Source of the DNA: Phycisphaerales bacterium
GTDB taxonomy: Bacteria > Planctomycetota > Phycisphaerae > Phycisphaerales > UBA1924
Length of the DNA: 64,000 nt
NCBI GenBank assembly: GCA_035627955.1
Contig: DASPKU010000001.1
Span: 124,001 to 188,000 of the forward strand
Direction of reading: 5' to 3'
The notes beneath the pieces were generated by a model. That model made no database searches. It was not told where the DNA came from and worked only from the letters and a program-made list of their open reading frames with translations. The translations under genes and the position numbers were made by a program. This document shows positions 31,889 through 49,892 of this stretch, in pieces (the stretch's first letter is position 1; each line of letters opens with the position of its first letter).

Positions 31889-31919
31889 CGGCGTTCGCCG
31901 CTCACGCGCTGGAGTTCGC

Positions 31920-32378: not shown

Positions 32379-33013
32379 GCCAAGCACACTCCCGCCGCGC
32401 GTTCACGCTCATCGAAGTCCTTATCGCCCTCTCCCTCATCCTCTTCCTCAGCGGCTCGCTCCTCTCCTACCTCTATTCGCTGCTCGAGCGCCGCGACACG
32501 CTTACCAAGGCCGCCGCCCAGCAGTCCGCCGCGGCCTCGATCTTCGAGCAGCTCGAGCACGACCTCGCCACCACCTTCGCCTCCGACGCCTCCGGCACCG
32601 CCGGCGTCAAGGGCGACGAGACCTCGCTCACCGTCCGCTGCCGCGGGACCAACCTCCTCTCCCGCGGCGCCGACCTCACCGATCTCCAAGGCTGCGAGCT
32701 GCGCTTCAGCGGCGGCACGCTCACCGCACGCCGCCTCTCCCAATCCCCCGGCAGCTTCGAGACAGTGGCCGACGGCGTCGAGCGCCTCCAGCTCCGCTAC
32801 TTCGACGGCACGGAATGGCTTGAGTCATTCGACAGCGCCCGCACCGGCGAGCTGCCCGTCGCGATCGAGGCGTCGCTCTGGTTCGGCGAAGCCGCGCCCG
32901 CCGGCGACGAAGGCGCGCCCGCCCCAGACGAGGCCCCCCGCGCCCCCGACCGCACCCGCACCATGGTCGTGCCCGACGGCCCCGTCGCCGCGTGGAAGGC
33001 GGGCGCCTCATGA
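32375..33013 (+). CDS. Minor pseudopilin, GspJ-like
   Basis: A 212-residue protein with the leader [20 protein letters not shown], followed by a long helix and a beta-rich domain (AASIFEQLEHDLATTFA, LTVRCRGTNLLSRG, CELRFSGGTLTARRLSQ, VERLQLRYFDGTEWLESFDS) in the manner of GspJ, the largest minor pseudopilin. The start is TTG at 32375, five bases after a strong GGAGGTG site and overlapping the previous stop. The C-terminal tail is Ala/Pro-rich. The stop overlaps the next ATG. Confidence 0.86.
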   Translation: MSQAHSRRAFTLIEVLIALSLILFLSGSLLSYLYSLLERRDTLTKAAAQQSAAASIFEQLEHDLATTFASDASGTAGVKGDETSLTVRCRGTNLLSRGADLTDLQGCELRFSGGTLTARRLSQSPGSFETVADGVERLQLRYFDGTEWLESFDSARTGELPVAIEASLWFGEAAPAGDEGAPAPDEAPRAPDRTRTMVVPDGPVAAWKAGAS

Positions 33014-34623
33014 CCCGCGCCGCAAGCTCACACCAAACGCTCGCTAACAAGGCCCGGCGCGCCGCCGTCCTCCTCGCCGTCATGCTCATCATCGTCATCG
33101 CCGCGCTGGTGGGCACGTCCGTGCTCTATACCGCCGACGCCCAGCGCGGCAGCGCGACCCTTACGCTCCAGCAGGCCCAGCTCCGCGCCGTCGCGTGGTC
33201 GGGCGTGCAGGGCGCCATGGCCCAGCTCGCGAGCCAGCGCGACGCCCTCCTCCGCGCCGAGGCCCCCGCGCTCACGACCGAATGGTCGCTCTTCGAGGGC
33301 TCCACCTCCGGCGACATCCGCCTCTCCCCACTCGACCCCAGCCAGCCCGACGCGGCAACCTCCGTGAGCGAGTCCGCCAAGCTCGACCTCAACACCGCCA
33401 CCGCCCCCATGCTCGCCAAGCTCCCCGGCCTTTCCGATGAGCTCGCCGGCAAGGTCCTCGCCGCCCGGGGGCGCGAGTTCGGCGCCCCCGAAGAGCTCGC
33501 CCGCGTCCAGGGCCTACCCGCCTCCATCCTCCTCGACGTCCCCGACGACGCCACCGCCCGCACCGCCACCCCCGCCCCCCGCGGCCTGCTCGCCCTCACC
33601 ACCACCTTCGCCTTCGACCCCAACCTCGCCCCCGACGATCAGCCCAAGGTCAACCTCTCCGGCGGCTGGTCCGAGGAGATCAAGACCGACCTCACCGCCC
33701 GCTTCCCCGAGCTCCTCAAAACCCTTGAGCCCATCCTGAGCAAGGCCGGGAAGCTCGCCAGCGACTCCGCACTCATCGCGGTTCTCCGCCGCAACAACAT
33801 CCCCGACAAGGACTGGGACGGCATCCTAGCCGTTATCACCACGACCGACGAGCAGTACAACCGCGGCCGCATCGACGTGAACCTCGCGCCTGTCGAGGTC
33901 CTCGCCGCGATCCCGGGCCTGGACCGGCCCGCCGCCGAGAAGATCGTCGATGCCCGCGCCCGCGTCGGGTCCACCGAGCGCGCGAAGCTCACCTGGCCAC
34001 TCACGCAGGGGGCGCTCACGCCCGAGCAGTTCGAGAAGGCCGCGCCCTGGCTAACCACCCGCTCGCTCCAGTGGCGCGTGCGGGTGGAGGCCCGCCTGCG
34101 CACCGCCGCCGCCCGTGAGCCGCGCCTGGGCTCCACCCTGGAAGCCGATGACGACACGCTTGACCCGCCGGGTATGGTGTGGGAGGCGGTCATCGATGTC
34201 TCCGACGCCCGCCCGCGGGTGGCCTACCTTCGCGATGTCACGCACCTGCCGGGGCTTGCCCGCCAGGCGCTGGCCAACGAGCAGGCGCAGGAAACAATGA
34301 TCGCGTCCACCCCCGCCGATTCCGGCGTGGGCGGCAATGGGGGGGCGGTATCGGACGTTCCGCCCGTTCAGCCATCGGACCGCACGAAGTCAAAGGCCGA
34401 CGCCAGCGTCGGGTCGATGAAGCGGAACACGCTCAAGGTTGACGGCGGCCTCAACCTCGGCGGCAGCAGCAAGCCCGCCGGCGGCACGGGGTCAGAAGAC
34501 TCCGCGTCACCGCCCGCAGATGATCAGGGAACGGAGACAGCTGGGGATGGCAGCGGCGGGGGCTCTCCCCCGCCAACCTCGAAGGACCGGCGGATCGGCC
34601 GCTGGCGGGGCAGGAAGGAGTAG
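33010..34623 (+). CDS. gspK: Type II secretion protein GspK
   Basis: A 537-residue protein whose N-terminus (MTRAASSHQTLANKARRAAV then LLAVMLIIVIAALVGTSVLY) is the GspK-type pilin-like anchor lacking the FTLIE leader but with hydrophobic helix. The GspK domain contains two helix-hairpin-helix-like units: KLDLNTATAPMLAKLPGLSD and RIDVNLAPVEVLAAIPGLDR. GspK caps the pseudopilus tip with GspI and GspJ. It is longer than usual (about 320 residues) because of an extra C-terminal region that is Gly/Ser/Lys-rich and disordered. The ATG overlaps the gspJ-like stop (ATGA). Confidence 0.88.
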   Translation: MTRAASSHQTLANKARRAAVLLAVMLIIVIAALVGTSVLYTADAQRGSATLTLQQAQLRAVAWSGVQGAMAQLASQRDALLRAEAPALTTEWSLFEGSTSGDIRLSPLDPSQPDAATSVSESAKLDLNTATAPMLAKLPGLSDELAGKVLAARGREFGAPEELARVQGLPASILLDVPDDATARTATPAPRGLLALTTTFAFDPNLAPDDQPKVNLSGGWSEEIKTDLTARFPELLKTLEPILSKAGKLASDSALIAVLRRNNIPDKDWDGILAVITTTDEQYNRGRIDVNLAPVEVLAAIPGLDRPAAEKIVDARARVGSTERAKLTWPLTQGALTPEQFEKAAPWLTTRSLQWRVRVEARLRTAAAREPRLGSTLEADDDTLDPPGMVWEAVIDVSDARPRVAYLRDVTHLPGLARQALANEQAQETMIASTPADSGVGGNGGAVSDVPPVQPSDRTKSKADASVGSMKRNTLKVDGGLNLGGSSKPAGGTGSEDSASPPADDQGTETAGDGSGGGSPPPTSKDRRIGRWRGRKE

Positions 34624-34627
34624 GGGT

Positions 34628-36247
34628 ATGGGGTCCAGGGAAGTCACCATCATCGAGCTCGACGGGGCACGCCTCAGCGCCCTGTCTGCCAACGTCACCG
34701 CGGGCGGCGTCGACATCGCCCGCTGGCACACCGCCACGCGCCCGGAGTCCGTGGCGCCTGACAACGCCAAGGCTGTGGGCGAGTGGCTGGGCAAGGAACT
34801 CAAGGACGCCGGGATCCCGCGTTCCCGCGTCATCCTCGCGATGGCCCGCAACGACGTGGTCTTGAAACCCCTCACGCTGCCCGCCAGCGACGACCTGAAC
34901 GAGGCCTCCATCGCCGGCGCTGTCCGCCTCCAGATGGTCCGTCAGCTCACGATGTCCATGGATGGCACGGCCATCGACTACATGATCATGCCGGGCCGCG
35001 CTCAAGGCACCATCGGCGTCATCGCCGGCGCGATGCCCGGCCACCGCGTGCAGTGGGCCCGTGACGTCGCCGCCGCCGCGGGCTGCAAGCTCAAGCGCAT
35101 CGGCCTTCGCTGCTCCGGCGCCGCGGCCCTGCTCGCCGAGCTCTCCCAGCGCCGGTCCGGCCCTGTCCTTGGCATCGCCGTGGGCGCCACCACCACCGAG
35201 TTCGTCATCGTCGAAGACGGCCAGATGATGCTCGCCCGCGTGGCCGAGCTGCCCCGCCCGGAGAGCGCCTCTGAGTACGAGGCCTTCGTCCAGCGCCTCG
35301 CCGTCGAGGCCAAGCGCACGTGGATGAGCTACCGCTCCGCAACGCCCGGGCTCGAGGTCGATCTGGTTGCCGTGCTTGGCGACGGCGAGCTCGCCCGCGA
35401 GGTTGCCTCCGCCTGCGGCAAGGGCCTGGGCGTCCCGGGCGAGATGGTCCCGCTCCCCTCGTTGGCAGCCCGCTCCTGCAACGTACCAGAGGCTGAGCGT
35501 GGCACCATGGCCGCGCTCGCTGGGCTGCTCATCGAAGGCGTCGTCGGCAAGCCCGGCCTGGACTTCGCCAACCCGCGGAAGGCCCCCGACCTCGCCGCTC
35601 GCCGCCGCCAGGGCGTCCTCGCGGCCGCGCTCGTGCTCATCGTGGTCGGCGGCTTCGGCCTGGTCGCCTCCAAGAAGTCCCTGGGCTCCATGCAGGCCAA
35701 GCTCGACACGCTCCGCGCCGAAGAGGGCCGCCTCAAGAGGAACCTCGACCAGTACCTCGCCCTCCACGCCCGCGTGAACCACATCGAGCAGTGGAAGAAC
35801 GCCCGCGTGGACTGGCTGCCGCACATCCACAAGCTGAGCGAGACGCTGCCCAGCCCGCACGACTCGACGACCGACGAGATCAACGGCAAGTTCCTCGCTT
35901 CCACCTTCTACGACCCCAAGGGCAAGTCGCAGTACCCCGGCGGCGAGTGGACCACCCGCGTACAGACCGTGTTCAACCTCGACGGCAAGGTGGACAACCG
36001 CACCATCGCCGCGGGCCTCCGCGAGCGCATCCTCTCGGACAAGATCTACACCGTCGAATCCCGCGGCCCCGACGTGCCCGACCGCTACGCCATTGAGCTC
36101 GCCACGCACCTGCCCCGCCCGGAGCTGCCGCCACCGCCGCCTGAGAAGCAAAAGCCCGCACCGAAGAAAGCCGCGACGCCCGAGGTAAAACCTGAAGCGA
36201 AGCCTGAGAACAAGACCGCCGATGCCGCCACGGGGGTGAAGCCATGA
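34628..36247 (+). CDS. PilM-PilN type fusion (GspL-like)
   Basis: A 539-residue protein. Residues 1 to about 310 form an actin-like ATPase/PilM fold (VTIIELDGARLSALSANVTA, VILAMARNDVVLKPLTLPAS, LGIAVGATTTEFVIVEDGQM). A single membrane helix at about 329-347 (GVLAAALVLIVVGGFGLVAS) is followed by a coiled coil (SMQAKLDTLRAEEGRLKRNL) and a PilN/GspL ferredoxin-like domain (WTTRVQTVFNLDGKVDNRTI). PilM plus PilN in one chain equals the GspL layout, which recruits GspE to the membrane. The tail is Pro/Lys/Glu-rich. The ATG has weak GGGG nearby; the stop overlaps the next start. Confidence 0.85.
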   Translation: MGSREVTIIELDGARLSALSANVTAGGVDIARWHTATRPESVAPDNAKAVGEWLGKELKDAGIPRSRVILAMARNDVVLKPLTLPASDDLNEASIAGAVRLQMVRQLTMSMDGTAIDYMIMPGRAQGTIGVIAGAMPGHRVQWARDVAAAAGCKLKRIGLRCSGAAALLAELSQRRSGPVLGIAVGATTTEFVIVEDGQMMLARVAELPRPESASEYEAFVQRLAVEAKRTWMSYRSATPGLEVDLVAVLGDGELAREVASACGKGLGVPGEMVPLPSLAARSCNVPEAERGTMAALAGLLIEGVVGKPGLDFANPRKAPDLAARRRQGVLAAALVLIVVGGFGLVASKKSLGSMQAKLDTLRAEEGRLKRNLDQYLALHARVNHIEQWKNARVDWLPHIHKLSETLPSPHDSTTDEINGKFLASTFYDPKGKSQYPGGEWTTRVQTVFNLDGKVDNRTIAAGLRERILSDKIYTVESRGPDVPDRYAIELATHLPRPELPPPPPEKQKPAPKKAATPEVKPEAKPENKTADAATGVKP

Positions 36248-37239
36248 GCACCGCCCGCATCCAGCTCCTCGTCGGCGCGGCCCTCATGGCAGGGATCGGC
36301 TACTGGGGCTTCCACTCCATCTACGCCGCGCCACGCCGCGACCTCCAAGAGCAAATCGACCAGACCAGCGCGAACATCGACACGATGAAGCGGACGCTCC
36401 GCGCTCAGGTTGAGCTCCACGACCGCGCCAAGGCCCTCCGCACCGCCACCCTGGGCGGCAAGCAGGATCAGGTCGAGCACCGGTTCCGCACCGGCCTCTC
36501 GCGCCTGGGCGAGCAGGAAGGCCTGACCAAGGTCGTCGTCGACCACGGCCAGCCCCAGTCCACCACCAGCCCGCTCTTGTCGACCAAGGGCATCCCCACA
36601 CCCCTCAAGCAGAACATCCGCAAGCAGCCCGACTTCCAGACCATCCGTGGCACGCTCAAGGGCATCGGCACGCTGGAGGAAGTCTGCAAGGTCGTCGCCA
36701 CCGCCCAGTCGCAGTCCTGGCTGCATCGGGTCGACGGCTTCTCCATCAAGCCCGTCGGCGGCGAGCGCAACCAGTTTGAGCTCAAGCTCGACGTTGCCAC
36801 GCTCTACCTGCCGGACCTGCCCGGCGGCGACGGCCCCGAGCCTGTCATCGTGCAGCCCCCGGCCGTTAACGAGCCGCTCTGGCGCGCGGTCGCGAGCAAG
36901 AACGTCTTCAAGGCCCCGCCCGCGCCCGCCCCGGGCGTCGAACCGGTGCGCCCCGTCGAGGTCGCCCAGGCCCCCGCGACGCCCCAGCCCGCGCCCCCGC
37001 CCCAGGTCTTTGCCCCCTACGACGACTGGAAGCTGACGGGCGTGATCATCAGCGGCGAGCGTTCCGAGGCCCTGTTCTTCAACACCCGCACGCTGGCCAA
37101 GCTCACCGTCGAGGAGGGTGCCCAGATCCTGGACGCCGTGTTCGTCGAAGGGCTGGGCGAGAAGGCGGTCATCGAGATCGCGGGCAAGCGCTTCGAAGTG
37201 TCCAATGGCCAGACATTGGCCGCGCGGAAACCCGTGTAG
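36244..37239 (+). CDS. PilO-PilP type fusion (GspM/GspC-like)
   Basis: A 331-residue bitopic protein. An N-terminal membrane helix (residues about 6-24), a coiled coil (RRDLQEQIDQTSANIDTMKR) and a PilO/GspM ferredoxin-like domain (FQTIRGTLKGIGTLEEVCKV, FELKLDVATLYLP) are followed by a Pro-rich linker and a C-terminal PilP/GspC HR-like beta domain (YDDWKLTGVIISGERSEALF, FEVSNGQTLAARKP). In known systems GspM binds GspL, and GspC HR binds the N0 domain of the secretin. Joining both in one protein would directly bridge the inner platform and the giant secretin encoded next. The start overlaps the preceding stop. Confidence 0.78.
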   Translation: MSTARIQLLVGAALMAGIGYWGFHSIYAAPRRDLQEQIDQTSANIDTMKRTLRAQVELHDRAKALRTATLGGKQDQVEHRFRTGLSRLGEQEGLTKVVVDHGQPQSTTSPLLSTKGIPTPLKQNIRKQPDFQTIRGTLKGIGTLEEVCKVVATAQSQSWLHRVDGFSIKPVGGERNQFELKLDVATLYLPDLPGGDGPEPVIVQPPAVNEPLWRAVASKNVFKAPPAPAPGVEPVRPVEVAQAPATPQPAPPPQVFAPYDDWKLTGVIISGERSEALFFNTRTLAKLTVEEGAQILDAVFVEGLGEKAVIEIAGKRFEVSNGQTLAARKPV

Positions 37240-37338: not shown

Positions 37339-40300
37339 ATGCCCCGGACCCCAGCACGATCCTCAACTCGCACGCACGGCGCACCGCCAAAGCTGCTCCT
37401 CGCGGCCTCGATCCTCGCCGTCGCCGGCCTGCCGCTCTCGCTCGCGCACGCGCAGAACGCGCCGCAGCAGCCCGCCCAGCCCGCCGCCAACAGTCATCCC
37501 GCCCGCATCGGCCCCGCGACACCCGCCGAGAAGCCCAAGGACGCCCTGCGCTTCAACTTCAAGGACGCGCCGATCGATCAGGTGCTGGACTTCTTCGCGC
37601 GCGAGTCCGGCGTCCCCATCATCTTCGAGGCCCCGCCGCCCCAGGGCACTATCACGTTCGTCAGCTCCGCCACGTACAGCTTCGACGACGCCCTCTCCAT
37701 CTTCAACCTCAACCTCATGCGCTTCGAGGTGCACCTCCGCCACGAGGGCCAGTACCTCTACCTCGCGACCCTCAAGGACTCGGTCAAGAAGCCCAACGTC
37801 GTCGTCAACCCCGGCAACCTGCCCAACATCAAGCCCGACCAGATCATCACCGCGCCCATCCCGCTGGAGAACGCCAAGGCCGACCTCGTCGCCGAGCAGA
37901 TCAAGTCCATGCTCAGCCAGTTCGGCGGCGTGGTGGCCGTGCCCGCGCAGAACATGGTGATCGTCGTGGAGAACGCGGCCCAGGTCCGCCGCATCCGCGA
38001 GGTCATTTCCGCCATCGACGCCGTCAAGCCCGTCGACTCCGCCTTCCGCCTCTTCCCCCTCGCCCACGCCCAGGCCGACGGCGTGCTTTCCGCCCTCAAG
38101 GGTCTGGTCGGCGAGCGTACCAAGACCGTCATCGTGGACAAGGACGGCCAGCAGCGCGTCGTGCAGGACCTCGCCGTGCAGGGCCTCAGCCTGGTGGGCG
38201 ACCCGCGCACCAACTCGATCATCGCGGTGGGCCCCGCCGCCCGCATCCGCACCGTCGAGGAGCTCATCAAGCTGCTCGACGTCCCCGGCAACCCCGTCGC
38301 CGGCGGCGTCGAGTCGCAGATGACGACCTTCACGCTGAGCGCCGTCACGCCCGAGGAGGCGGCGAAGCAGCTCAACGCCCTCTACGCCACGGTCGATCCC
38401 AAGCAGAAGCCCATCGTGCTGCCGCTGAGCGGTGCGAACAAGGTGACGGTGGTGGGGTCGCGCGACCACGTCTCGCGGGCCTCGGTGCTGCTGTCCGAGC
38501 TCGACAGCGGCGTCATCCCAGACCCGCAGAACCCCGGCATGACCCGCCCCGGCGTGCCCTTCCACCGCGCCGCGACGATCAGCCTGAAGTTCGCCGCGCC
38601 CGCGACCATCGAGGGCCTGCTCACCCGCCTGCTCACCCAGAAGCAAATGCAGACGGTGAAGTTCGCCTCCGCGCCCGACTCCCGCAGCATCGTCATCTCG
38701 GGCATGGACCAGGACGTCACCTGGCTCGAGTCCCTCGTCCGCGCCCTCGACGTCGCCCCCGACGCCGACAAGGACGTGCGCATGGTCCGCGTCGCCAAGG
38801 GCGACCCCGCGGGCGTGCTCGCTAAGGCCACCACGCTCTACCAGCAGACGGGCCGCGCCGAGAAGGACGCGGTGACCACCGCCCTTGACGCCGACTCCCG
38901 TACCATCACGCTGATCGGCACCAAGGGCGCCCTCACCACCTTCCAGCAGCTGCTGACCACGGCCGAGCAATCCGCCGCTGTCGACCAGGAAGTCCGCCGC
39001 TTCACCCTTACCCGCGCCATCCCCTCGGTGCTCTCGGCCAAGGTCGCGCGCCTCTCCCGCCCCCTGCTCACGCCCACCGACGGCGCCGCCTACGTCGAGC
39101 CCACCTTCGAGCCCGCCGACGACATCAGCACGCTGATCGTCCGCGCCCAGCCGCAGCAGTTCGAAGCCCTCGCCGGCCTCATCCAGCAGCTGGATTCGCA
39201 GACGCCCCTCGAGCGCTCCCTCCGCATTGTGCCCGTCGCGACCGAGAAGGCCGCGCAGGTCAAGGACAAGGCCCTCGCCATCTACCAGGCCCAGGCCGCG
39301 AGCCTGCCCAACGCCCAGCCCATCGACGTCACCGTCAACGAGCAGGCCAACTCACTCATGGTGATCGCCGACGCCGAGGGTATGGCCCGCTTCACCCGCA
39401 TCCTCGATGAGCTCCAGAAGCAGGCCGGCCCCGCCCGCGAGGTCCGCCTCATCGAGCTCAAGCTCGCCAAGGCCTCCGAAGTCACCGACTTCCTCCGCGG
39501 CATGGTTAAGTCCAGCGAGTCCATGATGATCAAGGGCGGGCCCGAGCCCGTCTTCGAGACCGTGGACGCCACCAACTCCATCATGGTCGCCGCCCAGCCC
39601 GCGCAGTTCGCGGTCATCGAGTCCCTCGTCCGCGGCCTCGACGCCCGCCACTCCGCCGACCGCCCCCCCATGCGCATCCTGCGCCTCCGCAGCACCGACG
39701 CCGCCAACCTGGCGTCCATGCTGCAGACCTCCTTCGACCAGCGCCCCATCGAAGAACGCACCAAGAAGCCGGTCACCATCCAGGCCGACCCCGGCACCAA
39801 CACCCTGATCGTCAACGCCGCCGACGAGGTGATGCCCGAGATCGAATCCGTCATCGCCAAGCTCAACGAGCAGGTGACCGACGACGCCGGGCGGGAGATC
39901 CGCATCTTCCCGCTCAAGGTCGCCCGCGCCGACGAGCTCGCCCGCACGATCGACCAGATGTACCCGCAGCCGCCGGTGCCCCTCGACCCCCGCACCCGCG
40001 CCCCGCGACCCGACCTCCAACCGCCAAAGGAAGTCACCGTCCGCGCCGACATCGGCACCAATGCGCTCATCGTGGACGCACCCGCCAAGCGCCTCGCCGG
40101 CTTCGAGGCCCTGGTCCGCAGCCTCGACCAGCAGAAGCTCGGCGAGAGCGTCACGCTCCGCACCTACAAGGTCGAGCGCGCCGACCTCAACTCCGTCGCC
40201 ACGACCATCCGCAACCTCGCGGTCTCCGGCTCGTTCTCGACAAACGGCCCGCTCAACGCGCCGGTCGCGGTTTCCACCGAGAACTCCACCCGCACGCTCA

Positions 40301-43300
40301 TCGTCAGCGGGCCCCCAGCGATTTTCGAAAAGCTCGAGGAGACCCTCAAGACCCTCGACGCCGCTCCCGCCCTCCCCGCGACGGAGATGAAGCTCTACGC
40401 CCTGGAGAAGGCCCGCAGCGAGCGCCTCCAGCCCCTCGTCGAGCGCATCCTCACGCAGAAGGCCCGCGAGCTCGACCCCGCCCTCGTCAACACCAGCACC
40501 CGCGTCGTCGAGGTCACCGGCGACGCACCCTCCAACACGCTCATCGTCAACGCCCCGCGCAACGTGATCGCCATCGCCGACGGCCTCGTCAAGGCCCTCG
40601 ACCAGCAGGCCGCGGCCACCGCCGTTGAGGTCCGCGTCTTCCGCCTGGGCAAGGGCGTTTCCACCACCGTCGGCCCCGCCGTCGCCTCCGCCATCCAGGC
40701 ACAGGCCGTGCCCGGCGAGCCCGCGGTGTCCGTCACCCCCGAGGCCGTGAGCAACACGCTCGTCATCGTCGGCACGTCCGCGCAGCTGGAGAAGGCCGCC
40801 AAGCTCATCGAGGAGATGGACACCACCGCCGACAAGGACGGCGTCGGCGTCAAGACCATCACCCTCAGGAACGCCCGCGCCGAATCCCTCGCCCCCGTGC
40901 TCGAGAGCGTCCTCCGCAAGGAGTCCGCCCTCGACAAGCTCCCCGAGTGGGCCCGCATGCAGGCGATCGCCCGCGGCGCCACCGACGGCCCGCAGGTCCG
41001 CGTCATCGCAGAGCCCGCGCTCAACTCGCTCATCGTCAGCGGCCCCCGCAACGTGATCGAGGTCGCCGAGCAGGTCGTCGCCGAGCTCGACATCGACCCC
41101 GCCCAGCGCGCCGGCGAACGCGGCGTCCGCGTCATCACGCTCCAGAACTCCGACGCCGCCACCCTCGCGCAGAACCTCCAGGCCGTCTTCGCGGAGGAGA
41201 CCAGCAAGGACCCCGCGCCCACCATCCGCGTCGACACGCAGTCCAACTCGCTGATCGTCCGCGCCACCCCCGCGCAGATGGCCCAGGTCGACGAGCTCAC
41301 CAAAAAGCTCGACGCCGCGGCCGTGAACGGCTCCCGCCAGATGCGCATGGTCAGCGTCGACAGGTCCCGCGTCGACGCCGAGCTCCTCGCCACCACCCTC
41401 AAGCGCATGCTCGAGCAGCAGGGCGCGGGCGTCAAGGTCGAGGTCATCTCCGCCGAAGAGCTCCTCAAGCAGAACGGCAACGGAAAAAAGTCCACCCACG
41501 CCGACCCCGCCGATCGGGGGTCCCGAAGTCAAGGACTGAGTAATTCAAGCACATGGGTACCCCGCCGCTCCGCGGCGGCTCCTGCCGGCGCGCCCAACGC
41601 AGCCTGGTTCGCCATTCTCGCCACCACCATCGGCGCGCAACCCGAAACCCCCGCCACAACTCCCACCGCCGCTACACCCGACAAGCCTGCCTCCGCCGCC
41701 CCGGCGCAGCCGGAGGACGAAGACACCGGCATCACCATCGCCGTCGACAAAGCGAGCAACTCCATCATGCTCGTCGGCTCGCCGCGCCTGACCGACCGCC
41801 TCGCCACCCTCGCGGCCCAGCTCCAGCAGCAGATGCCCGCCGAGCCCACCGGCGTCCACGTCATCTCACTCCCAACCACCACCGACCTCGACGCCCTCGC
41901 GAATCTCCTCCGCACCACCACGCAGCAGATCGGCCGCCTCTCGCTCACCAACCCCGGCGGCTTCAGCGGCCCCGTCAACATCCTGCCCGACCCCGCCGGC
42001 GCCGCCCTCATCGTCCTCTGCAACGACACGGACTTCGCCACGGTCGGCAAGCTGGTCGCCACCCTCGCCGGCAACACCGCCGCGTCCGCCACCACTGTCA
42101 AGGTCTACCCCCTTACCAACACCTCGCCGCAGAAAGCCATCACCAGCCTCCGCGACCTCTTTTCAGCGAACCCCAGCTCGCGCCAGGCCCAGCGCATCCG
42201 CGCCCTCGACATCACCGTCCCGGGTGCAAGCGGCCCCGTCACGAGCCGCATCAACCCCGACTCGATCCGCATGACCCCCGACCCCGGCGGCACCTCGGTC
42301 ATCGTGGCCGCGCCGCAGGAGGCCTTCACGCTCATCGATTCCCTCATCGAGACCCTCGACCAGAGCCCGGTGAAGGACCGCCTCGCCATCCGCCGTTACG
42401 AGCTCAAGAACGCCCGCGCCACGCAGCTCAGCCAGACGCTCCAGCAGCTCTTCGACGCCCAGCGCCAGGGCCCCGGCGCGCAGGACCTCCCGCAGGCCCG
42501 CTTCGTCGCCGACGACCGCACCAACTCCATCCTCGTCACCGCCAGCAGCCCCCAGCACCAGGACGTGCTGCGCCTCCTCGAGACCGCCGACGCCTCGCAG
42601 GACCAGGAGGGCCTCGAGCTCGCCATCATCACGCTCCAGCAGGCCTCCGCCTCGACCGTGCAGCGCATTGTGGACGAGGTCGTCGTCGGGCGTGACCCCG
42701 CCAAGCGCGACCGCATCCGCATCTCCGCCCAGGACGGCAGCAGCCTGCTCGTCGTCCGCGCCCCCAAGGACGACGTCGCCGCCGTCAAGTCCATCGTCGC
42801 CCAGCTCGATACCGCCGAGACCAGCGGCCTGCCAGTCAAGTCCATCAAGCTCGAGCGGGCCGACGCCGCCACCGTCGCCCAGGCCTTGCAGAAGTTTTTC
42901 CAGGACCGCGCCCAGGTCTCCTCCCGCCCCGGCGTCCGCGCCCCCAACCGCGTGGCCGTCGTGGGTGACAAGCGCACCGGCACGCTCATCGTCTCCGCCA
43001 GCGACGAGGACTTCGCCACCGTGCAGTCCCTCGTGCAGACCTTTGACACCCCCAGCCCCGCGCAGGACTTTCAGTTCAAGGTCGTCCCGCTGAAGCACGC
43101 CCGCGTGAGCGACGTCTCCACGCTCATCAAGAACGTCGTCGACGAGATGCGCTGGGAGTCGGCCGTCTCCGGGCGCGGCGGCGACCAGGACCGCGCTCTC
43201 TACGTCCAGACCAACGAAGCCACCAACGGCATCGTCCTTGTCGGGCGCGGCGACGCGATCGCGCAGGCCGAGCGCGTGATCGCCACCCTCGACACGCCGC

Positions 43301-46300
43301 CCGAGCAGCGCGCCGCCACCGTCATGCGCAGCGTGGTGGTCAAGTCAGCCGACGTGCAGGCCCTCCGCACCGTCCTCCAGAAGGCATTCGCAACACCCAA
43401 CTGGTCCATGTGGCGTGGCCAGGACCCCGCGGCCATCACCGTCGAGGTCGACAAGTCCCGCCGCGCCCTCATCCTCCTCGGCAAGCAGGAGCGCGTCGAG
43501 CAGGCCCTGGCTTACGTCAAGGAGCTCGACACCGGCCCCGAGACCGGCGGACACAAGATCGAGTCCATCACGCTCAACCACGCTCAGGCCGCGCGGGTGA
43601 GCCAATCGCTGAAGCAGTTCTTCGCCGACCGCGCCCGCAACCAGGGCGTCGAGCCCTCCGTCAGCATCGTGGGTAGCCAGGACGGCAACGTTCTTATCGC
43701 CAGCGGCCCCGACGAGGACATCCGCACTTTCAAGGACATGGTCGCGCAGATCGACCAGCCCGACGGCGGCAAGGACCGCCGCATCGAGGTCTTCGTCCTC
43801 AAGAACGGCATCGCCCGCGACACCGCTGATGCTCTTCGCTCCATGTTCGCCCGCGCCCAGCGTGCCGACGAGCAGGTCATTATCACGCCCCAGCCCTCCA
43901 CCAACTCCCTGATCATTTCTGCACCGGCAGCGATCTACGACAACGTCGTCGCCCTGCTGCAGCAGCTCGACGCCGCGCCCAAGGGCGACGAGACCAACAT
44001 CGAGACGGTGGCGCTCACCACCGCCCGCGCCAGCGAGGTGGCCGGCTCGCTCACCCGCGCACTGCCCCCGCACGTCAAGGTCATCATCACCCCCGTCAAC
44101 CGCAGCAACTCCCTGCTCCTCACCGGCAGCAAGGAAGCCATCGCCATCGTGATGGAGGAGATCAAGAAGCTCGACACTCAGCCCGTCCGCACCGGCCTCA
44201 CCTTCCGCCGCTTCCGCATCGCCAACGCCGACGCGACCGACGTCGCATGGACCGTCGAGAAGATGCTCGAGGCAAGGCCCAAGAACCCCACCGACGGCGA
44301 CGCCTCCATCGACTACTCCCGCCAGGACAACACCGTCACCGTCTACGCGCCCGCCGACCAGGTCGAGGAGATCGAGAAGATCGTCCGCGAGCTCGACCAG
44401 CCCGCCGGCGAGGAGCGCTCCACCGAGTTCATCAAGCTCCAGTTCGCCAAGGCCGAGGGCGCGGCGACCGCGCTCAAGAACTTCTACGGCCGCTCCGCGC
44501 CCGAGGCCTCCACGCCGGGCGCCCGCAGTGTGACCATCATCTCCGACCCCGTCTCCAACTCGCTGGTCATCCGCGCCGATAAGGACCAGTGGCCCGGCAT
44601 CCGCGCCCTCATCGAGAAGTTCGACACCAAGGACTACGACACCGCCCGCCAGCTCGCGGTGATCCCGCTGGAGCACGCCGACGCGGCCAGCGTCGCGCGA
44701 GCCCTCAACGACGGCCTCCGCGCGCCGCTCGAAGAGCAGCTCCGCCAGGCCCAGGCCCGCGCCCAGCAGAACCAGCGCAACCAGGGCAACAACAACCAGC
44801 GCCCGCAGTTCAACGAGCCCGCCCTGCTCATCACCGCCGAGGGCCTGCCCACCGTCTCCGCCGAGCCGATGACCAACGCCGTCATCGTCTTCGCCAGCAA
44901 GCCCGACCTCGAGCGCATCCAGACCATCGTCAAGCAGCTCGACACCGCCGGGTTCGAGAGCATGCCCCTGCCGCGGATCATCCCGCTCAAGAGCGGCAAG
45001 CCCTCGGCCATCGCCTCCAACATCCGCGAGCTCTACCTCAACAAGCAGCCCAACCAGCGCTCGCAGGGACCCAAGTCCGTCATCGTGATCGGCGATGACA
45101 CCTCCGGCGCCCTCATCGTCCGCGCCGACGACGAGAAGTTCGCCCAGATCAAGGCCCTTGCTGAGACTCTCGAGCAGCAGGGCCAGATCGGGCGCGTCGT
45201 CCCCCACGTCGTCGCCCTCAAGAACGTCGCCGCGGGCCGCCTCCGCACCACCCTGCTCGCCACCTTCACCGAGACCGCCAAGAGCCAGGGCGAGACCCTC
45301 GCCGTCGAGGTTGACCGCACCAGCAACTCGCTCGTCATCGCCTGCTCGCCGCGCCTGCTCGAAGAGATCAAGCGCGTTATCGCCGAGCTCGACGCCGCCA
45401 ACCTCCCCGCCGCGGACCCCGCCAAGCCCGACGCCTCCCCCCTCTCCGCCGCCTTCACCATCATCGACATCAACAACAACGCCCCCGCGGACCTCAAGAA
45501 GGTTCTTGACGACATGGGCCTCACCAAGCCCCAGAACCCCGATCAACGCGGCCTCGTCTCCGAGCAGGTCACCATCGTCCCACTCAGCAGCCGGCGCGCC
45601 CTCGCCGTGCTCGCCAGCCCCGCCGACGCCCGCGCCGTCGAGTCCCTCGTCCGCGCCCTCGACGCCGAGCCCGTCGATGCCCAGCAGCAGCTCGCCGTCA
45701 TCCCGCTCAAGATGGCCTCCGCCAAGCCGCTGGCCGACACGCTCTCCGCGATGCTCAAGCCCACCGACCCGGCTTCGCAGCAGGGCCAGACCGGCCCCGC
45801 CCGCGCCCTCGCCGAGCAGGTCCGCCGCCTCGCCCTCACCAAGAACGGCGTCAACCCTAACCCCGCCACTATCGACCTCAGCAAGCCCATCCGCATCATC
45901 CCCGATGTGGACAGCAACGCCCTCATCATCGCCTCCACGCAGGCCAACCTCGACGCCATGCGCGAGGCCGTCAAGCTGCTCGACACGCTGCCCGTCGGCG
46001 ACGCCGTGCTCGTCCGCATCTTCATGCTCGAGAACGCCAGCGCCCCCCGCGTCAAGGCCGTGATAGACCAGCTCTTCGCCCAGGGCGAGGCGCTCCGCCG
46101 ACTCCCCGGCACCCGCCGCCAGGGCCTGCCGCCGACGACTACCGGCCAGGCACTCGCCGGCGAGATCGCCGTGAGCGTGGACGAGCGCACCAACGCCATG
46201 GTCGTCGCCGGGCGTGAAGAGGCCGTCGCCCTCGTCGAGGTGCTCGTCAAGGACCTCGACAGTGACCGCGCCAGCAAGTGGATCGAGCCCCTCATCATCC

Positions 46301-49300
46301 CCCTCCAGCACGCCGACGCGGCCACCATGGCCCGCAACCTCAACAACATCCTCGTCCGCGGCCTCGCCGCCACGCCCGAGGCGGTCGGCATGCAGAAGCA
46401 GTGGGGCCGCCTCCGCATGCTCGCGGAGAAGCAGGCCGCGGCACACGCCCCTGCTCAGCCCAATGCCCAGCCCAACGGCCAGCCCGCGCTCGCTCCGCAG
46501 GTCGCGGCCGCCGACTGGGTGCAGGCCGACCTCTTCGCCCCCCTCAACGGCCTCTCCATCACCGCCGACGAGACGCTCAACATCCTCATCGTGGTCGGCA
46601 GCCCCGCCAACAACCAGATCGTCCGGCAGCTCGTCGGCATGCTCGACGTCGAGGCCGCGTCCGCCGCCAACACCGTCCGCGTCTACCCCCTCAAGCACGC
46701 GGCCACCGAGCGCGTCCTGGGCGTCGTCCGCGACATCTTCCGCCAGCGCGAATCCTCCCCCGACCAGCGGCCGGAGGACCGCCTCATCGTCTCCGCCGAC
46801 GCCCGCACCAACTCGCTGATCGCCAGCAGCAGCAACAAAACCTTCGCCATCCTCGAGGGCCTGCTCAAGACCCTTGACACCGAGCAGACCAACTTCTCCG
46901 TTGGCCTGCACGTGGTGCCCGTGACCGCTGGCGACGTCCGCCAGCTCGCTCCGCGCATCGACCGCCTCATGCGCGACCGCATCCAGGCCGCGGCCCGCGT
47001 CGGCAGCGTCACCAGCCCCCTCGACGCCTTCTCCATCGAGCCCGAGCCCATCAGCAACCTGCTCATCGTCGCGTGCAGCAACGAGAACCTGCAGGTCGTC
47101 AAGGAGCTGGTGAACGCCCTCGCCGAGGGCGCCGACCGCATCGCCAAGGGCGAGCGCATGGACATCATCCAGCTCACCCGCTCCCGCGCCGCCGAGATCA
47201 TCCCCAGCCTCAACTCGCTGTACATCGACAAGGAGGTCGCCAAGCGCGGCCAGGGCGCCGTCTCCGCCACGCCCAACGAGCGCCTCAACGCCGTGGTGCT
47301 CTCGGGCACCGAGCAGGACCTGATCGAGCTCCGCGCCCTCGTCAACAAGCTCGATACCGCCGAGGTGCTCGCCCGCCAGCAGATCAAGTGGATCGAGCTC
47401 AAGAGCGCCAGCGCCCCCGAGGTCGTGCGGCTGCTGCAGAGCGTCCTGGCCGGCCGCCCGCTGTCCGGCACGCAGGGCCGCCAGGCGATGAAGGTCCAGT
47501 TCCTCCGCGACAGGCTCGTCGACACGCTCTCTCGCCCCGGCTACAAGCCCACCGAGGCCGACATCGATGGCGCCATCAAGGACCAGGTCACCCTCAACGC
47601 CGACCAGCGCACCAACTCCATCTGGATCACCGCTCCCGAGCCCATCGTCGCCCTCCTCACCGAGATGATCGAGGACATCGAGGCCTCCTCCGCGGGCGCC
47701 CGCAAGATCGAGTACTTCAAGCTGCTCAACGCCGACGCCCGCCAGATGGCCGAGGTGCTCCGCGACACCTTCAACCTCCGCCAGCAGGGCAACTCCCTCG
47801 TCCTCGTGCCGCTGGGCCAGCAGCCGACCACGCCCACCGACCCCAACGCCCCCATCGACCCCAACGCCCAGCCCCCCGTCGGCGGCGTGCCCAGCGGGCC
47901 AAGCGGCCCCATCGGCATCGGCGACACCGCCGTGACCGTCACCGAGGACGAGCGGCAGCAGCTCTCTATCGCGGTGGACGCCCGCACCAACACCCTCATC
48001 GTCTCCGGCACCGCCGACTACATCGAGCTGGTCAAGAAGCTCGTCACCGAGCTCGACAGCATCGAGGCCAACGAGCGCGAGCGCCGCGTGTACTCGCTCC
48101 GAAACGCCAAGGCCAAGGAGATCGAGACCACCCTCAAGAGCTACTTCAGCGACGAGAGCAACGCCCAGCGGGCCACCCTGGGCCCGCAGCTCAGCGGCTC
48201 GCTGGTCCGCCGCCTGGAGGAAGAGGTCACCGTCGTCGGCGACGAGAAGTCCAACAAGCTCGTCATCTCGACCAGCCCGCGCTACATGAACACCGTGCTC
48301 TCGATCATCGACGAGCTCGACGCTTCGCCCCCGCAGGTCATGATCCAGGTCCTGCTCGCCGAGATCACCCTCGACAATACCGACACTTGGGGCATGGACG
48401 TGCAGGTGGGCCCCTTTGGCGGCGAGGGCTACCGCATCGGCTCCACCCCCGCCGGCGCCAGCGTCGCCACCGCCCTGGGCGTGCCCAACCTCTCCGTTTC
48501 CTCCGCCGACTTCGGCATCCTCATCCGCTCCCTTGAGGAGCAGGGCAAGCTCGAGGTCCTGAGTAACCCTCAGGTCATGGTCAGCAACAACCAGACCGCC
48601 AAGATCCAGGTGGGCGAGAACATCGCCGTCGTCAACGGTGTTGACCGCTCCAGCACCGGCAGCTCCTTCGCCAACGTCGAGCGGCAGGACGTGGGCATCA
48701 TCCTCAACGTCGTGCCCACCATCAACTCCGACGGCTTTGTCCGCATGGCCATCCAGCCCGAGATCTCGCAGGTCTCCGGAAAGGTCACGCAGATCAGTAG
48801 CGACGTCTCGACCCCCATCATCCGCAAGTCCGCGGTGGACACCATCGTCAACGTCAAGGACGGTCAGTCGGTCGTGATCGGCGGCCTCATCCAGACCGCC
48901 GAGGACCAGCGCCGCACCAACGTGCCCGGCCTGGGCGACATCCCCATCATCGGCATCCCCTTCCGCACCAGGAAGGACAGCAACGTCAAGACCGAGCTGA
49001 TGGTGATCCTCACCCCCCGCGTTATTCCCGGCGAGGCCGGCATGGCCGAGGCCCTCGTGCACGACGTCACCGAGCAGTCGATCGACCGCCTGGAGGACCC
49101 CAGCAAGATCCAGGACTACCTCGAGCGCATCCGCCTGGAAGTCAAGCAGAAGCGGGCCAAGGAAGCCGAGATGCTCGAGGAGGAGATGTACAACACTGGC
49201 GAGCCGACCTCCGCCTCCGCGCCCGCCACCTCCCCCGGCGCCCTTGGCGAGGACACCAACCCGCCGCGCCGCGACCCCTCCGTCCTCATCCCCACCGGCA

Positions 49301-49368
49301 AGTCCCACCCGCGCACCAACGACCGCGCCAACAGCCCCAACTCCCACGAGAACCGCCCCCAGCCGTAA
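37339..49368 (+). CDS. Giant secretin (GspD-like) with about 41 N1-type repeat domains
   Basis: One uninterrupted frame of 4,009 residues; ordinary GspD has about 650. Residues 1-39 are a signal peptide (MPRTPARSSTRTHGAPPKLL to LSLAHAQ). An N0 domain spans about 68-150 (RFNFKDAPIDQVLDFFARES). From about 168 to 3664 I count 41 divergent N1-type secretin repeats of about 85 residues, most with an opening strand like VFPLKHARA and a closing block like DxRTNSLIVSAxxxD...LD. A single secretin barrel domain starts near 3665 (PQVMIQVLLAEITLDNTDTW) with the signature GQSVVIGGLIQTAEDQRR and VPGLGDIPIIGIPF; a coiled, then Pro/Ser-rich, tail ends the protein. ATG 37339 follows GGAGGGTGG. It closes the gsp operon with a lipoprotein. 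The outer-membrane channel role is established for the family; an extra-long periplasmic tube is inference. Repeat 16 carries an insertion at about 1384-1440. Confidence 0.95.
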   Translation: MPRTPARSSTRTHGAPPKLLLAASILAVAGLPLSLAHAQNAPQQPAQPAANSHPARIGPATPAEKPKDALRFNFKDAPIDQVLDFFARESGVPIIFEAPPPQGTITFVSSATYSFDDALSIFNLNLMRFEVHLRHEGQYLYLATLKDSVKKPNVVVNPGNLPNIKPDQIITAPIPLENAKADLVAEQIKSMLSQFGGVVAVPAQNMVIVVENAAQVRRIREVISAIDAVKPVDSAFRLFPLAHAQADGVLSALKGLVGERTKTVIVDKDGQQRVVQDLAVQGLSLVGDPRTNSIIAVGPAARIRTVEELIKLLDVPGNPVAGGVESQMTTFTLSAVTPEEAAKQLNALYATVDPKQKPIVLPLSGANKVTVVGSRDHVSRASVLLSELDSGVIPDPQNPGMTRPGVPFHRAATISLKFAAPATIEGLLTRLLTQKQMQTVKFASAPDSRSIVISGMDQDVTWLESLVRALDVAPDADKDVRMVRVAKGDPAGVLAKATTLYQQTGRAEKDAVTTALDADSRTITLIGTKGALTTFQQLLTTAEQSAAVDQEVRRFTLTRAIPSVLSAKVARLSRPLLTPTDGAAYVEPTFEPADDISTLIVRAQPQQFEALAGLIQQLDSQTPLERSLRIVPVATEKAAQVKDKALAIYQAQAASLPNAQPIDVTVNEQANSLMVIADAEGMARFTRILDELQKQAGPAREVRLIELKLAKASEVTDFLRGMVKSSESMMIKGGPEPVFETVDATNSIMVAAQPAQFAVIESLVRGLDARHSADRPPMRILRLRSTDAANLASMLQTSFDQRPIEERTKKPVTIQADPGTNTLIVNAADEVMPEIESVIAKLNEQVTDDAGREIRIFPLKVARADELARTIDQMYPQPPVPLDPRTRAPRPDLQPPKEVTVRADIGTNALIVDAPAKRLAGFEALVRSLDQQKLGESVTLRTYKVERADLNSVATTIRNLAVSGSFSTNGPLNAPVAVSTENSTRTLIVSGPPAIFEKLEETLKTLDAAPALPATEMKLYALEKARSERLQPLVERILTQKARELDPALVNTSTRVVEVTGDAPSNTLIVNAPRNVIAIADGLVKALDQQAAATAVEVRVFRLGKGVSTTVGPAVASAIQAQAVPGEPAVSVTPEAVSNTLVIVGTSAQLEKAAKLIEEMDTTADKDGVGVKTITLRNARAESLAPVLESVLRKESALDKLPEWARMQAIARGATDGPQVRVIAEPALNSLIVSGPRNVIEVAEQVVAELDIDPAQRAGERGVRVITLQNSDAATLAQNLQAVFAEETSKDPAPTIRVDTQSNSLIVRATPAQMAQVDELTKKLDAAAVNGSRQMRMVSVDRSRVDAELLATTLKRMLEQQGAGVKVEVISAEELLKQNGNGKKSTHADPADRGSRSQGLSNSSTWVPRRSAAAPAGAPNAAWFAILATTIGAQPETPATTPTAATPDKPASAAPAQPEDEDTGITIAVDKASNSIMLVGSPRLTDRLATLAAQLQQQMPAEPTGVHVISLPTTTDLDALANLLRTTTQQIGRLSLTNPGGFSGPVNILPDPAGAALIVLCNDTDFATVGKLVATLAGNTAASATTVKVYPLTNTSPQKAITSLRDLFSANPSSRQAQRIRALDITVPGASGPVTSRINPDSIRMTPDPGGTSVIVAAPQEAFTLIDSLIETLDQSPVKDRLAIRRYELKNARATQLSQTLQQLFDAQRQGPGAQDLPQARFVADDRTNSILVTASSPQHQDVLRLLETADASQDQEGLELAIITLQQASASTVQRIVDEVVVGRDPAKRDRIRISAQDGSSLLVVRAPKDDVAAVKSIVAQLDTAETSGLPVKSIKLERADAATVAQALQKFFQDRAQVSSRPGVRAPNRVAVVGDKRTGTLIVSASDEDFATVQSLVQTFDTPSPAQDFQFKVVPLKHARVSDVSTLIKNVVDEMRWESAVSGRGGDQDRALYVQTNEATNGIVLVGRGDAIAQAERVIATLDTPPEQRAATVMRSVVVKSADVQALRTVLQKAFATPNWSMWRGQDPAAITVEVDKSRRALILLGKQERVEQALAYVKELDTGPETGGHKIESITLNHAQAARVSQSLKQFFADRARNQGVEPSVSIVGSQDGNVLIASGPDEDIRTFKDMVAQIDQPDGGKDRRIEVFVLKNGIARDTADALRSMFARAQRADEQVIITPQPSTNSLIISAPAAIYDNVVALLQQLDAAPKGDETNIETVALTTARASEVAGSLTRALPPHVKVIITPVNRSNSLLLTGSKEAIAIVMEEIKKLDTQPVRTGLTFRRFRIANADATDVAWTVEKMLEARPKNPTDGDASIDYSRQDNTVTVYAPADQVEEIEKIVRELDQPAGEERSTEFIKLQFAKAEGAATALKNFYGRSAPEASTPGARSVTIISDPVSNSLVIRADKDQWPGIRALIEKFDTKDYDTARQLAVIPLEHADAASVARALNDGLRAPLEEQLRQAQARAQQNQRNQGNNNQRPQFNEPALLITAEGLPTVSAEPMTNAVIVFASKPDLERIQTIVKQLDTAGFESMPLPRIIPLKSGKPSAIASNIRELYLNKQPNQRSQGPKSVIVIGDDTSGALIVRADDEKFAQIKALAETLEQQGQIGRVVPHVVALKNVAAGRLRTTLLATFTETAKSQGETLAVEVDRTSNSLVIACSPRLLEEIKRVIAELDAANLPAADPAKPDASPLSAAFTIIDINNNAPADLKKVLDDMGLTKPQNPDQRGLVSEQVTIVPLSSRRALAVLASPADARAVESLVRALDAEPVDAQQQLAVIPLKMASAKPLADTLSAMLKPTDPASQQGQTGPARALAEQVRRLALTKNGVNPNPATIDLSKPIRIIPDVDSNALIIASTQANLDAMREAVKLLDTLPVGDAVLVRIFMLENASAPRVKAVIDQLFAQGEALRRLPGTRRQGLPPTTTGQALAGEIAVSVDERTNAMVVAGREEAVALVEVLVKDLDSDRASKWIEPLIIPLQHADAATMARNLNNILVRGLAATPEAVGMQKQWGRLRMLAEKQAAAHAPAQPNAQPNGQPALAPQVAAADWVQADLFAPLNGLSITADETLNILIVVGSPANNQIVRQLVGMLDVEAASAANTVRVYPLKHAATERVLGVVRDIFRQRESSPDQRPEDRLIVSADARTNSLIASSSNKTFAILEGLLKTLDTEQTNFSVGLHVVPVTAGDVRQLAPRIDRLMRDRIQAAARVGSVTSPLDAFSIEPEPISNLLIVACSNENLQVVKELVNALAEGADRIAKGERMDIIQLTRSRAAEIIPSLNSLYIDKEVAKRGQGAVSATPNERLNAVVLSGTEQDLIELRALVNKLDTAEVLARQQIKWIELKSASAPEVVRLLQSVLAGRPLSGTQGRQAMKVQFLRDRLVDTLSRPGYKPTEADIDGAIKDQVTLNADQRTNSIWITAPEPIVALLTEMIEDIEASSAGARKIEYFKLLNADARQMAEVLRDTFNLRQQGNSLVLVPLGQQPTTPTDPNAPIDPNAQPPVGGVPSGPSGPIGIGDTAVTVTEDERQQLSIAVDARTNTLIVSGTADYIELVKKLVTELDSIEANERERRVYSLRNAKAKEIETTLKSYFSDESNAQRATLGPQLSGSLVRRLEEEVTVVGDEKSNKLVISTSPRYMNTVLSIIDELDASPPQVMIQVLLAEITLDNTDTWGMDVQVGPFGGEGYRIGSTPAGASVATALGVPNLSVSSADFGILIRSLEEQGKLEVLSNPQVMVSNNQTAKIQVGENIAVVNGVDRSSTGSSFANVERQDVGIILNVVPTINSDGFVRMAIQPEISQVSGKVTQISSDVSTPIIRKSAVDTIVNVKDGQSVVIGGLIQTAEDQRRTNVPGLGDIPIIGIPFRTRKDSNVKTELMVILTPRVIPGEAGMAEALVHDVTEQSIDRLEDPSKIQDYLERIRLEVKQKRAKEAEMLEEEMYNTGEPTSASAPATSPGALGEDTNPPRRDPSVLIPTGKSHPRTNDRANSPNSHENRPQP
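41554..41581. repeat. Copy of the 28-bp palindrome arm inside the secretin gene
   Basis: Identical (28 of 28) to 30301-30328. It lies in the longest linker of repeat 16 and is read in frame as WVPRRSAAA (secretin residues about 1406-1414), so the insertion was tolerated without breaking the gene. Confidence 0.9.
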
Positions 49369-49376: not shown

Positions 49377-49892
49377 ATGCAACTCCGCTATCCGCCCTCC
49401 GCTTTCCGCTTTCCGTTTCTCGCAGGCGCCCTCGCGCTGCTGACCGCCCTCCCCGCCTGCGACAGCGGCAGCAAGAACCGCATGCCCTCCCAGCCCGCCA
49501 ACATCCAGCCCTCGCGCGTGGGCGTCTGGGCCACGCCCCCATTGGACACCGACGCCAACGGCTACGTCGACACCGTCGAGATCACCGTCTACGTCTCCGC
49601 CGACCAGCACCCCGTCCCGCTCTCCGTCCCCGGCACCTTCACCTTCCGCCTCATCGGGCGCGACAAGAAGGACCTCGCCACCTGGCACATCGACGAGCCC
49701 GCCGCCCAGGCCGCCATGCGCCGCTCCCGCGTCGGCCCCGGCTACTTCTTCACCCTCAACGTCAAGGACGTCGCCACCGACGAGATCGACGCCCAGTCCG
49801 CCGAGCTCGCCGCCGAGTTCACCCCCCGCACCGGCAAGCCCGTCCAGGCCCCCCTCACCGGCCTCCGCTTCGGCCGCACCCGCCCCAAGTAA
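49377..49892 (+). CDS. Lipoprotein encoded next to the secretin
   Basis: A 171-residue lipoprotein, ATG eight bases after the secretin stop. The signal peptide (MQLRYPPSAFRFPFLAGALA) ends in the lipobox LPAC. The mature protein is a single beta-sandwich-like domain (SRVGVWATPPLDTDANGYVD, VEITVYVSADQHPVPLSVPG, TFTFRLIGRDKKDLATWHID). The loop DTDANGYVD resembles a calcium loop. Its position suggests an accessory factor for the secretin, as pilotin lipoproteins are, but it does not resemble GspS or PilF by eye. The signal-peptide DNA overlaps a GCTTTCCG direct repeat also seen before ahcY. Confidence 0.72.
   Translation: MQLRYPPSAFRFPFLAGALALLTALPACDSGSKNRMPSQPANIQPSRVGVWATPPLDTDANGYVDTVEITVYVSADQHPVPLSVPGTFTFRLIGRDKKDLATWHIDEPAAQAAMRRSRVGPGYFFTLNVKDVATDEIDAQSAELAAEFTPRTGKPVQAPLTGLRFGRTRPK

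Follow-up and report, generated by a model that had tools for sequence, protein, structure and literature searches.

What could a bacterium do with a secretin of 4,009 residues, and does such a protein exist at all? The question is raised by the genome of a Phycisphaerales bacterium, in which the window that we analysed, a stretch of 64,000 nucleotides, contains a forward-strand frame (37339..49368) that an earlier note, written from the letters alone, ascribed to one secretin with a single N0 domain, about 41 N1-type repeats and one C-terminal secretin domain. The usual N-domain set of GspD, the secretin of type II secretion systems (T2SS), is N1-N3.

The frame was open on re-reading, and its product is a GspD-type secretin with the anatomy described: a signal peptide, an N0 domain, 41 N1-type repeats and one secretin domain. 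The signal peptide (residues 1-38; 37339..37452), which includes a hydrophobic stretch at residues 15-38, was read by eye and would end near A38. The N0 domain (residues ~70-163; 37546..37827) is weak by sequence, its PF21305 match (E=0.0056) reaching 16.9 bits against a Pfam cut-off of 27; AlphaFold2 predicts the N0 fold, and the model matches the N-terminal structures of PulD, XcpQ and GspD, with PulD (6hcg_A) as the top Foldseek match (E=1.3e-12). At the other end lies the secretin domain (residues 3732-3896; 48532..49026), to which PF00263 gives 160.3 bits (E=4.2e-47; cut-off 27.5). The array occupies residues 176-3662 (37864..48324). Secretin_N (PF03958) scores 1078.7 bits on the giant, in 34 separate stretches with E<=0.001 each and in 39 at E<=10; this count had been set beforehand as a test of the repeats, and 34 stands well above the refuting bound of ten. 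A profile iterated from a single repeat marked 42 stretches; one repeat is interrupted and accounts for two of them, which leaves 41 repeats, and a profile built from all relatives likewise gave 41. As a chance control, 200 shuffles of the giant protein yielded seven matches in total at a domain E<=0.01. The mature chain amounts to 426 kDa.

Structure prediction, proposed earlier as a check on the repeats, recovered the N1-type secretin fold. An AlphaFold2 model of seven repeats contains seven beta-alpha-beta-beta-alpha units (pLDDT 79.6), and single units superpose on secretin N domains at about 1.1-2.0 Å over 59-69 residues. In the N-terminal model (pLDDT 76.9), N1-type domains come behind N0, again with PulD as the best match. 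All 38 Foldseek matches at E<=0.001 were to entries named as secretins or as parts of secretion systems; a second structural comparison also listed KH proteins and phosphoglucosamine mutase at Z 6-7.7, which are common-fold background. The packing of one repeat against the next is left unpredicted by these single-chain models, with a pTM of 0.45 for the seven repeats and a multi-domain rmsd of about 20 Å.

To which secretion system does the giant belong? The best NCBIfam match is the GspD model TIGR02517, at 1058.6 bits (cut-off 351.35), a score swollen by the repeats; its best stretch, residues 3440-3902, spans positions 147-596 of the 600 in the model. The PilQ model (TIGR02515, 347 bits) and the type III model (TIGR02516, 333.5 bits) exceed their own cut-offs and fall far under the GspD model. 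An identity as the PilQ of a type IV pilus was not borne out, since the GspD model scores best and the neighbours are T2SS pseudopilins. The giant gspD ends a type II secretion operon, F-G-H/I-J-K-L-M-D, all of it on the forward strand. The first recognised gene encodes a gspF-like inner-membrane platform protein (28924..30294; PF00482 E=4e-52) and is followed by a gspG-like major pseudopilin (30569..31120; PF08334 E=3.4e-22, with an N_methyl match) and by two pseudopilins labelled H/I type by position and synteny. The first of these, a minor pseudopilin (31142..31888), matches N_methyl (PF07963 E=1.3e-6) and has homologues beside giants in 7 of 20 loci; the second (31773..32378), the true start of which is probably internal, has no Pfam match and is recognised from homologous genes between G and J beside relatives' giants. 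Then come a gspJ-like pseudopilin (32375..33013; N_methyl, and T2SSJ at E=9.1e-5), a gspK-like pseudopilin with a helix-hairpin-helix motif (32992..34623; PF03934 E=1.7e-8, PF12836 E=6.4e-17), a gspL/PilM-like platform gene of conserved position (34439..36247; PF11104 E=1e-5), the true start of which probably lies after gspK, and a gspM-like gene (36244..37239) that has no Pfam match and is assigned from its place between L and D and its conserved synteny. F, G and K score above their Pfam cut-offs, J and the L/PilM-like gene below theirs. A GspE/PilB-type ATPase is encoded on the opposite strand (23533-25221), and no GspC was found among the neighbour genes scanned. Two more genes with N-terminal methylation motifs lie apart from the operon, also on the forward strand (17405-19786).

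The same neighbourhood recurs elsewhere. When eleven window genes were compared with 20 loci that flank giants or split giants in 18 genomes, at least two operon genes were found beside the secretin in 18 of the 20 loci, and loci with operon homologues include those of f6 and of Verrucomicrobia-titled metagenome-assembled genomes (MAGs). One flank (L053), where the contig start is close by, shows only gspM and the lipoprotein gene described below. The 15 kb stretch beside another giant (L168; G034:C15:33000-48000) holds no operon-gene homologue, and the operon may be located elsewhere in that genome. Eight bases after the window's secretin begins a small lipoprotein gene (49377..49892, forward strand), which has no Pfam match; its homologue occurs in 9 of the 20 flank loci, some of which are too short to reach it, and a lipobox was read by eye in the window copy and in all seven of the nine homologues whose frames were read. 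From its sequence and place the product is a pilotin candidate. It contains a D-x-D-x-N-G-x-x-D stretch. Farther downstream (50294-56175) lie transporter genes with BPD_transp_1 (two frames) and ABC_tran domains, and a homologue of the first of them is also present beyond some relatives' giants.

A 12-kb frame in a single contig invites the suspicion that several genes were wrongly joined, a suspicion against which the spread of the giant type can be set. With an alignment of about 540 C-terminal residues from 21 giants as query (A1), a search of 251 genomes of the order found 106 matches at E<=4e-160; they fall in 105 genomes, and the next value is 4e-113. Homologues of over 2,000 residues, which the earlier note had suggested looking for, are common: for 98 of the 106 matches the open frame has 2,431 residues or more, and for 91 it has 3,000 or more; four of the eight in shorter frames were inspected, three being cut at contig ends and one frameshifted. 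Among the matches listed below the gap in E values, the longest frame is at most 1,352 residues. Genomes assembled as one contig carry giants too (G133, 4,634 residues; G396, 4,856 residues). Selection on the sequence is evident in two close pairs with dN/dS of 0.10 and 0.12 and low pN in every 400-residue block; the more distant pair of the window's giant and that of G002 gives 0.24, and a 47%-identical pair 0.60, a value disturbed by missing repeats. A few MAG copies are interrupted, by apparent frameshifts in L041 and L093 and by a stop in L140, as an artefact of assembly or annotation might be, but against the recurrence of the type in 105 of 251 genomes, with many copies intact and some in single contigs, and against a dN/dS near 0.1 in close pairs, the probability of such an artefact is practically nil. 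The giant is a real T2SS secretin of variant, conserved form, and its domain anatomy is well supported. In L041, the giant of a two-contig genome, the two apparent single-base frameshifts are both near inter-repeat linkers and are likely sequencing errors; L140 has 20 + 25 repeats and one in-frame stop codon at ~4424-4426.

Of 392 genomes sampled across the phylum, 14 have a match at E<=4e-191, all from the window's own order. In a named collection, 66 of the best 80 loci have at least 24 repeats in the secretin frame, and the other 14 are cut by a contig end (11), frameshifted (1) or split into genes (2); the titles include Phycisphaerales, other Planctomycetota and Verrucomicrobia MAGs. General presence in Verrucomicrobiota was considered and rejected: among 288 genomes sampled in the phylum to which G617 belongs, G617 itself is the one with a giant, so that the occurrence is patchy, and the MAG titles may be wrong.

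Repeat number differs widely among these proteins. Intact giants of the order, picked for long frames (n=21), have 30-52 repeats, and another giant of the order, broken by two frameshifts, totals 56-57; the smallest complete single-gene giants among the best 80 loci, both Verrucomicrobia-titled, have 25 (L137) and 29 (L107). Shorter arrays are found in four GspDs (G408, G323, G381 and G204) that come from other classes of the phylum and have 7-9 repeats, in L152, with 4, and in seven ordinary GspDs, from the order or from the class, with 3 each. In a tree of 49 C-terminal regions, the root of which is for drawing only, the giants, a two-gene UBA1845 type described below and the 7-9-repeat proteins fall on one side (91/93), the 3-repeat GspDs and L152 on the opposite side (91/73), and the two main giant classes are sisters (95/87). 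The giant and ordinary GspD forms can coexist in one genome, for G479 and G625 each have a giant plus a second GspD-type match, in frames of 801 and 824 residues; the second match beside the giant of G421, in an 855-residue frame, is of giant type. The window's genome itself encodes six further secretins (L142-L147; G000 contigs C5, C15, C8, C21, C21 and C12), in which the giant-repeat profile, which was trained on giants and may miss divergent N domains, counts 0-4 N1-type domains. The one on C12, a frame of 1,253 residues without N repeats, has a long N-terminal part.

The divergence of the repeats had suggested that the array is old and kept under selection, and comparison with relatives bears this out. 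By profile-aligned scores, each of the window's 41 repeats has its reciprocal best match, with the order unbroken, in G002 (41/41) and in G012 (41/41), and in-order reciprocal matches were likewise found in the one-contig genome G133 (39/39) and in families f2 (G034, 31/31) and f4 (G027, 30/31); the null for these comparisons has a mean of 8-10 and a maximum of 16. Within the family, identity between orthologous repeats is mostly 40-80% (23-86% in three listed relatives), while paralogous best matches inside the window protein are 20-40% identical. Concerted evolution or recent expansion was therefore rejected for the window's class, orthologous repeats being closer than paralogous ones. These ordered one-to-one repeats and the low dN/dS of close pairs are what an old array under selection displays. 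The f6/Verrucomicrobia class is also collinear internally (G029 against the RA.bin27 MAG, 18/18, with a null of up to 10). From one giant class to the other, most of this order has gone, but a trace survives: 32 of 48 pairs are at p<=0.05, with a mean of 7.5 in-order matches against 4.8 by chance in pairs that share sequences and are non-independent, and 7 of the 48 lie above all 2,000 shuffles; the window's array against that of L133, with 10 of 14 in order, exceeds every shuffle. An entirely independent origin of each class was rejected because this weak common order remains, and the same trace makes one ancestral long array behind both classes the better reading of the sequences.

Change in the array proceeds by whole repeats. 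Compared with 28 orthologous arrays of its class, the window's array is without a five-repeat block after repeat 6 and a four-repeat block after repeat 12 that most 50-repeat relatives possess, and f2 and f4 members have two extra repeats after repeat 36. Spacing is regular, with a median period of 77-85 residues and a median linker of 13-15.5 residues across 42 frames. Certain repeats are consistently long, reaching at least 85 residues in most of the 28 arrays: repeat 16 in 24, repeat 29 in 26, repeat 33 in 28, repeat 35 in 27, repeat 39 in 27 and repeat 40 in 28. The stretch with the conserved long-loop repeats 29, 33, 35, 39 and 40 (44668..48057) would come to lie near the outer membrane, and by analogy with the loop-bearing gate ring of Thermus PilQ (PMC5745081), repeats 29-40 may be gate rings.

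Most arrays of the window's class carry a seam in mid-array. In the window, repeat 16 is interrupted by a low-complexity insert (residues 1377-1464; 41467..41730), a seam that harbours a signal-peptide-like stretch (residues ~1409-1433; 41563..41637; shuffle p=0.013, with the hydrophobic peak equalled in 0 of 500 shuffles). Where the extra part of repeat 16 was read, in 19 frames, it is a low-complexity insert of 47-92 residues, and such inserts hold a hydrophobic stretch resembling a weak signal peptide. This first seam pattern is present in 19 of 42 frames and absent in 23, including class-A and other frames. Of 34 distinct seam inserts picked out by a pattern, 23 score above their own shuffles at p<=0.05 and 28 at p<=0.1, by a score devised after the pattern had been seen and on related sequences, so that it serves as a description more than as an independent test.

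In three genomes the array is made of two adjacent genes (L089, L090 and L172), and flanking sequence compared by eye puts the gene boundary at the seam. L172 belongs to genus g49, to which L089 and L090 are assigned because their frame lengths equal those of its two other members. By the giant-repeat profile, the first protein has 17, at least 18 and 21 repeats in L089, L090 and L172; it carries a signal peptide and N0 in L089 and L172 and runs off the contig end in L090. In all three the second protein has 24 repeats, the secretin domain and, by eye, a signal peptide. The two genes of L089 overlap by stop and start (ATGA), and Pfam finds 13 Secretin_N stretches in its first protein, which is without a secretin domain. 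A comparable arrangement is seen in the UBA1845 type, where a 2,809-residue frame with 24 repeats and no secretin domain is followed by a gene with 15 repeats and the secretin (L162/L130). This long frame has an extended charged N-terminal region (L162/L130/L134). In a third class (L127 and L135) long linkers occur that contain signal-peptide-like stretches; one such linker lies 14-15 repeats before the end, which is the place of the UBA1845-type gene boundary. An apparent division into three genes in G039 was rejected, since the breaks look like single-base shifts and no signal peptide was seen at them. On the simplest reading, proteins that were once exported separately as ring stacks became fused into giants, or else giants were split at such places.

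A signal peptidase might even cut the intact chain at the seam, so that the working channel would consist of an N0-bearing repeat stack plus a secretin with the remaining repeats. The signal-peptide-like score of 23 inserts and the coincidence of the seam with a gene boundary in three related genomes speak for cleavage, but the hydrophobicity is modest, 11 of the 34 inserts fail p<=0.05, a membrane-helix hydrophobicity cut-off leaves the window's seam unmarked, and the signal-like stretch may be a mere fossil of gene fusion. Cleavage is on balance unlikely, and it can be reconciled with the stacked tube that we now consider.

What would so many N domains build? We think it probable that the repeats behind the single N0 stack as rings into a tube of about 100-170 nm. 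The periplasmic part of a T2SS GspD would have been lengthened from the usual N1-N3 to 41 N1-type domains. At each repeat 12-15 copies would form a ring, the rings stacking as a tube. Through such a tube the pseudopilus and substrates would pass from a platform in the inner membrane, at a long distance from the outer membrane and probably where the cytoplasmic membrane is invaginated; the long-loop rings near the outer membrane may serve as extra gates. The length follows from an assumed rise of 2.5-4 nm per ring over 42 rings. In published descriptions, PulD with N0-N3 is 20 nm long with N1-N3 tightly packed (PMC6882859), and Thermus PilQ has six stacked rings, 35 nm in length, in a periplasm of about 70 nm (PMC5745081, PMC4463427); by analogy with these lengths a tube of the order of 100 nm is likely, as had been proposed at the outset. 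That the repeats form rings in a long channel is supported indirectly, by the ring-type N fold, the short uniform linkers, the insertion and deletion of whole repeats and the separately exported halves.

The array could instead be a tether, in which only the last few repeats form rings and the rest is a flexible string to the inner membrane that spans a variable distance. Such a string would suit the changes in array length that are tolerated, and AlphaFold2 gives no firm packing between repeats. A tether, however, needs one chain, whereas the three split genomes and the UBA1845 type hold the N-terminal repeats as a separate protein; in the former the N0 half is not covalently tied to the channel, which favours stacking and argues against a tether. 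Moreover, the linkers are short and uniform, and individual repeats and their loops are conserved by position. We rate the tether as improbable.

Would such a tube span the envelope? The earlier note had invoked an enlarged planctomycete periplasm. This part of the claim stands for other planctomycetes, whose periplasm is described as variable (PMC5394234) and sometimes greatly enlarged by invaginations; for this order, no data on periplasm width or on the envelope were found in the open literature. The six other secretins of the window's genome, with their 0-4 N1-type domains, argue against a uniformly wide periplasm. Either the giant tube serves only places with a wide periplasm, or it is no straight bridge. 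A tube that is stacked without bridging the membranes everywhere, curved or free-ended in an enlarged periplasm or bridging only at local invaginations, would agree with the ordinary N-domain numbers of those six secretins by the giant-repeat profile and with a variable periplasm. Against it, N0 is retained N-terminally in 12 aligned giants, as if docking at the platform, and also in the N-terminal protein of the split arrays L089 and L172, and the platform genes sit in the operon. We give this variant little credence.

Taken further, the stacked tube suggests a mega-secretin family in Planctomycetota and Verrucomicrobiota that arose when ring-stack proteins with separate export were fused, signal-peptide-like stretches being kept at the seams, and that forms a continuous conduit of at least 100 nm with ring-specific gates across an enlarged periplasm, which some lineages assemble from two non-covalent segments. 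We offer this fuller picture tentatively, as somewhat less than an even prospect. To the earlier note the analysis adds the wide spread of the type, its occurrence in Verrucomicrobia-titled MAGs, the T2SS operon that encodes it, and the seam with the split genes. A 15-fold channel, if that copy number applies, would cost about 60,000 residues and 6.4 MDa, and a conserved family with 25 to ~56 ring domains would be among the longest protein channels. With the giants, the old question of how planctomycetes secrete proteins through a periplasm that is enlarged and folded becomes directly testable, and the two-gene arrays offer a test of whether secretin rings stack without a covalent link.

How do the giants compare with known secretins? 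The longest secretin with a described structure that we met in the literature has six rings, and a search of mostly open-access literature returned no report of one with more than six N rings. GspD, PulD and XcpQ share with the giant an N0, N1-type domains and a secretin domain, encoded among pseudopilin and platform genes; they have N1-N3, whereas the giant has 41 N1-type repeats, a mid-array seam, split-gene forms and a mature chain of 426 kDa. The family is not defined by how many N domains it has, but in this number the giant departs from the usual three. The PilQ of Thermus thermophilus (N0-N5, 35 nm) is likewise lengthened by extra N domains, shown as six stacked rings in a wide periplasm (PMC5745081, PMC4463427), but it serves a type IV pilus system and has six rings. 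The GspDs of G408, G323, G381 and G204 fall on the giants' side of the tree and have 7-9 repeats in frames of 1,257-1,415 residues. The two-gene secretins of the UBA1845 type (L130/L134, L162/L163) belong to the giants' C-terminal family and have 24 + 15 repeats in L162/L130; unlike the giants, they keep the 24 repeats in a separate frame of 2,809 residues and the 15 with the secretin in the next gene.
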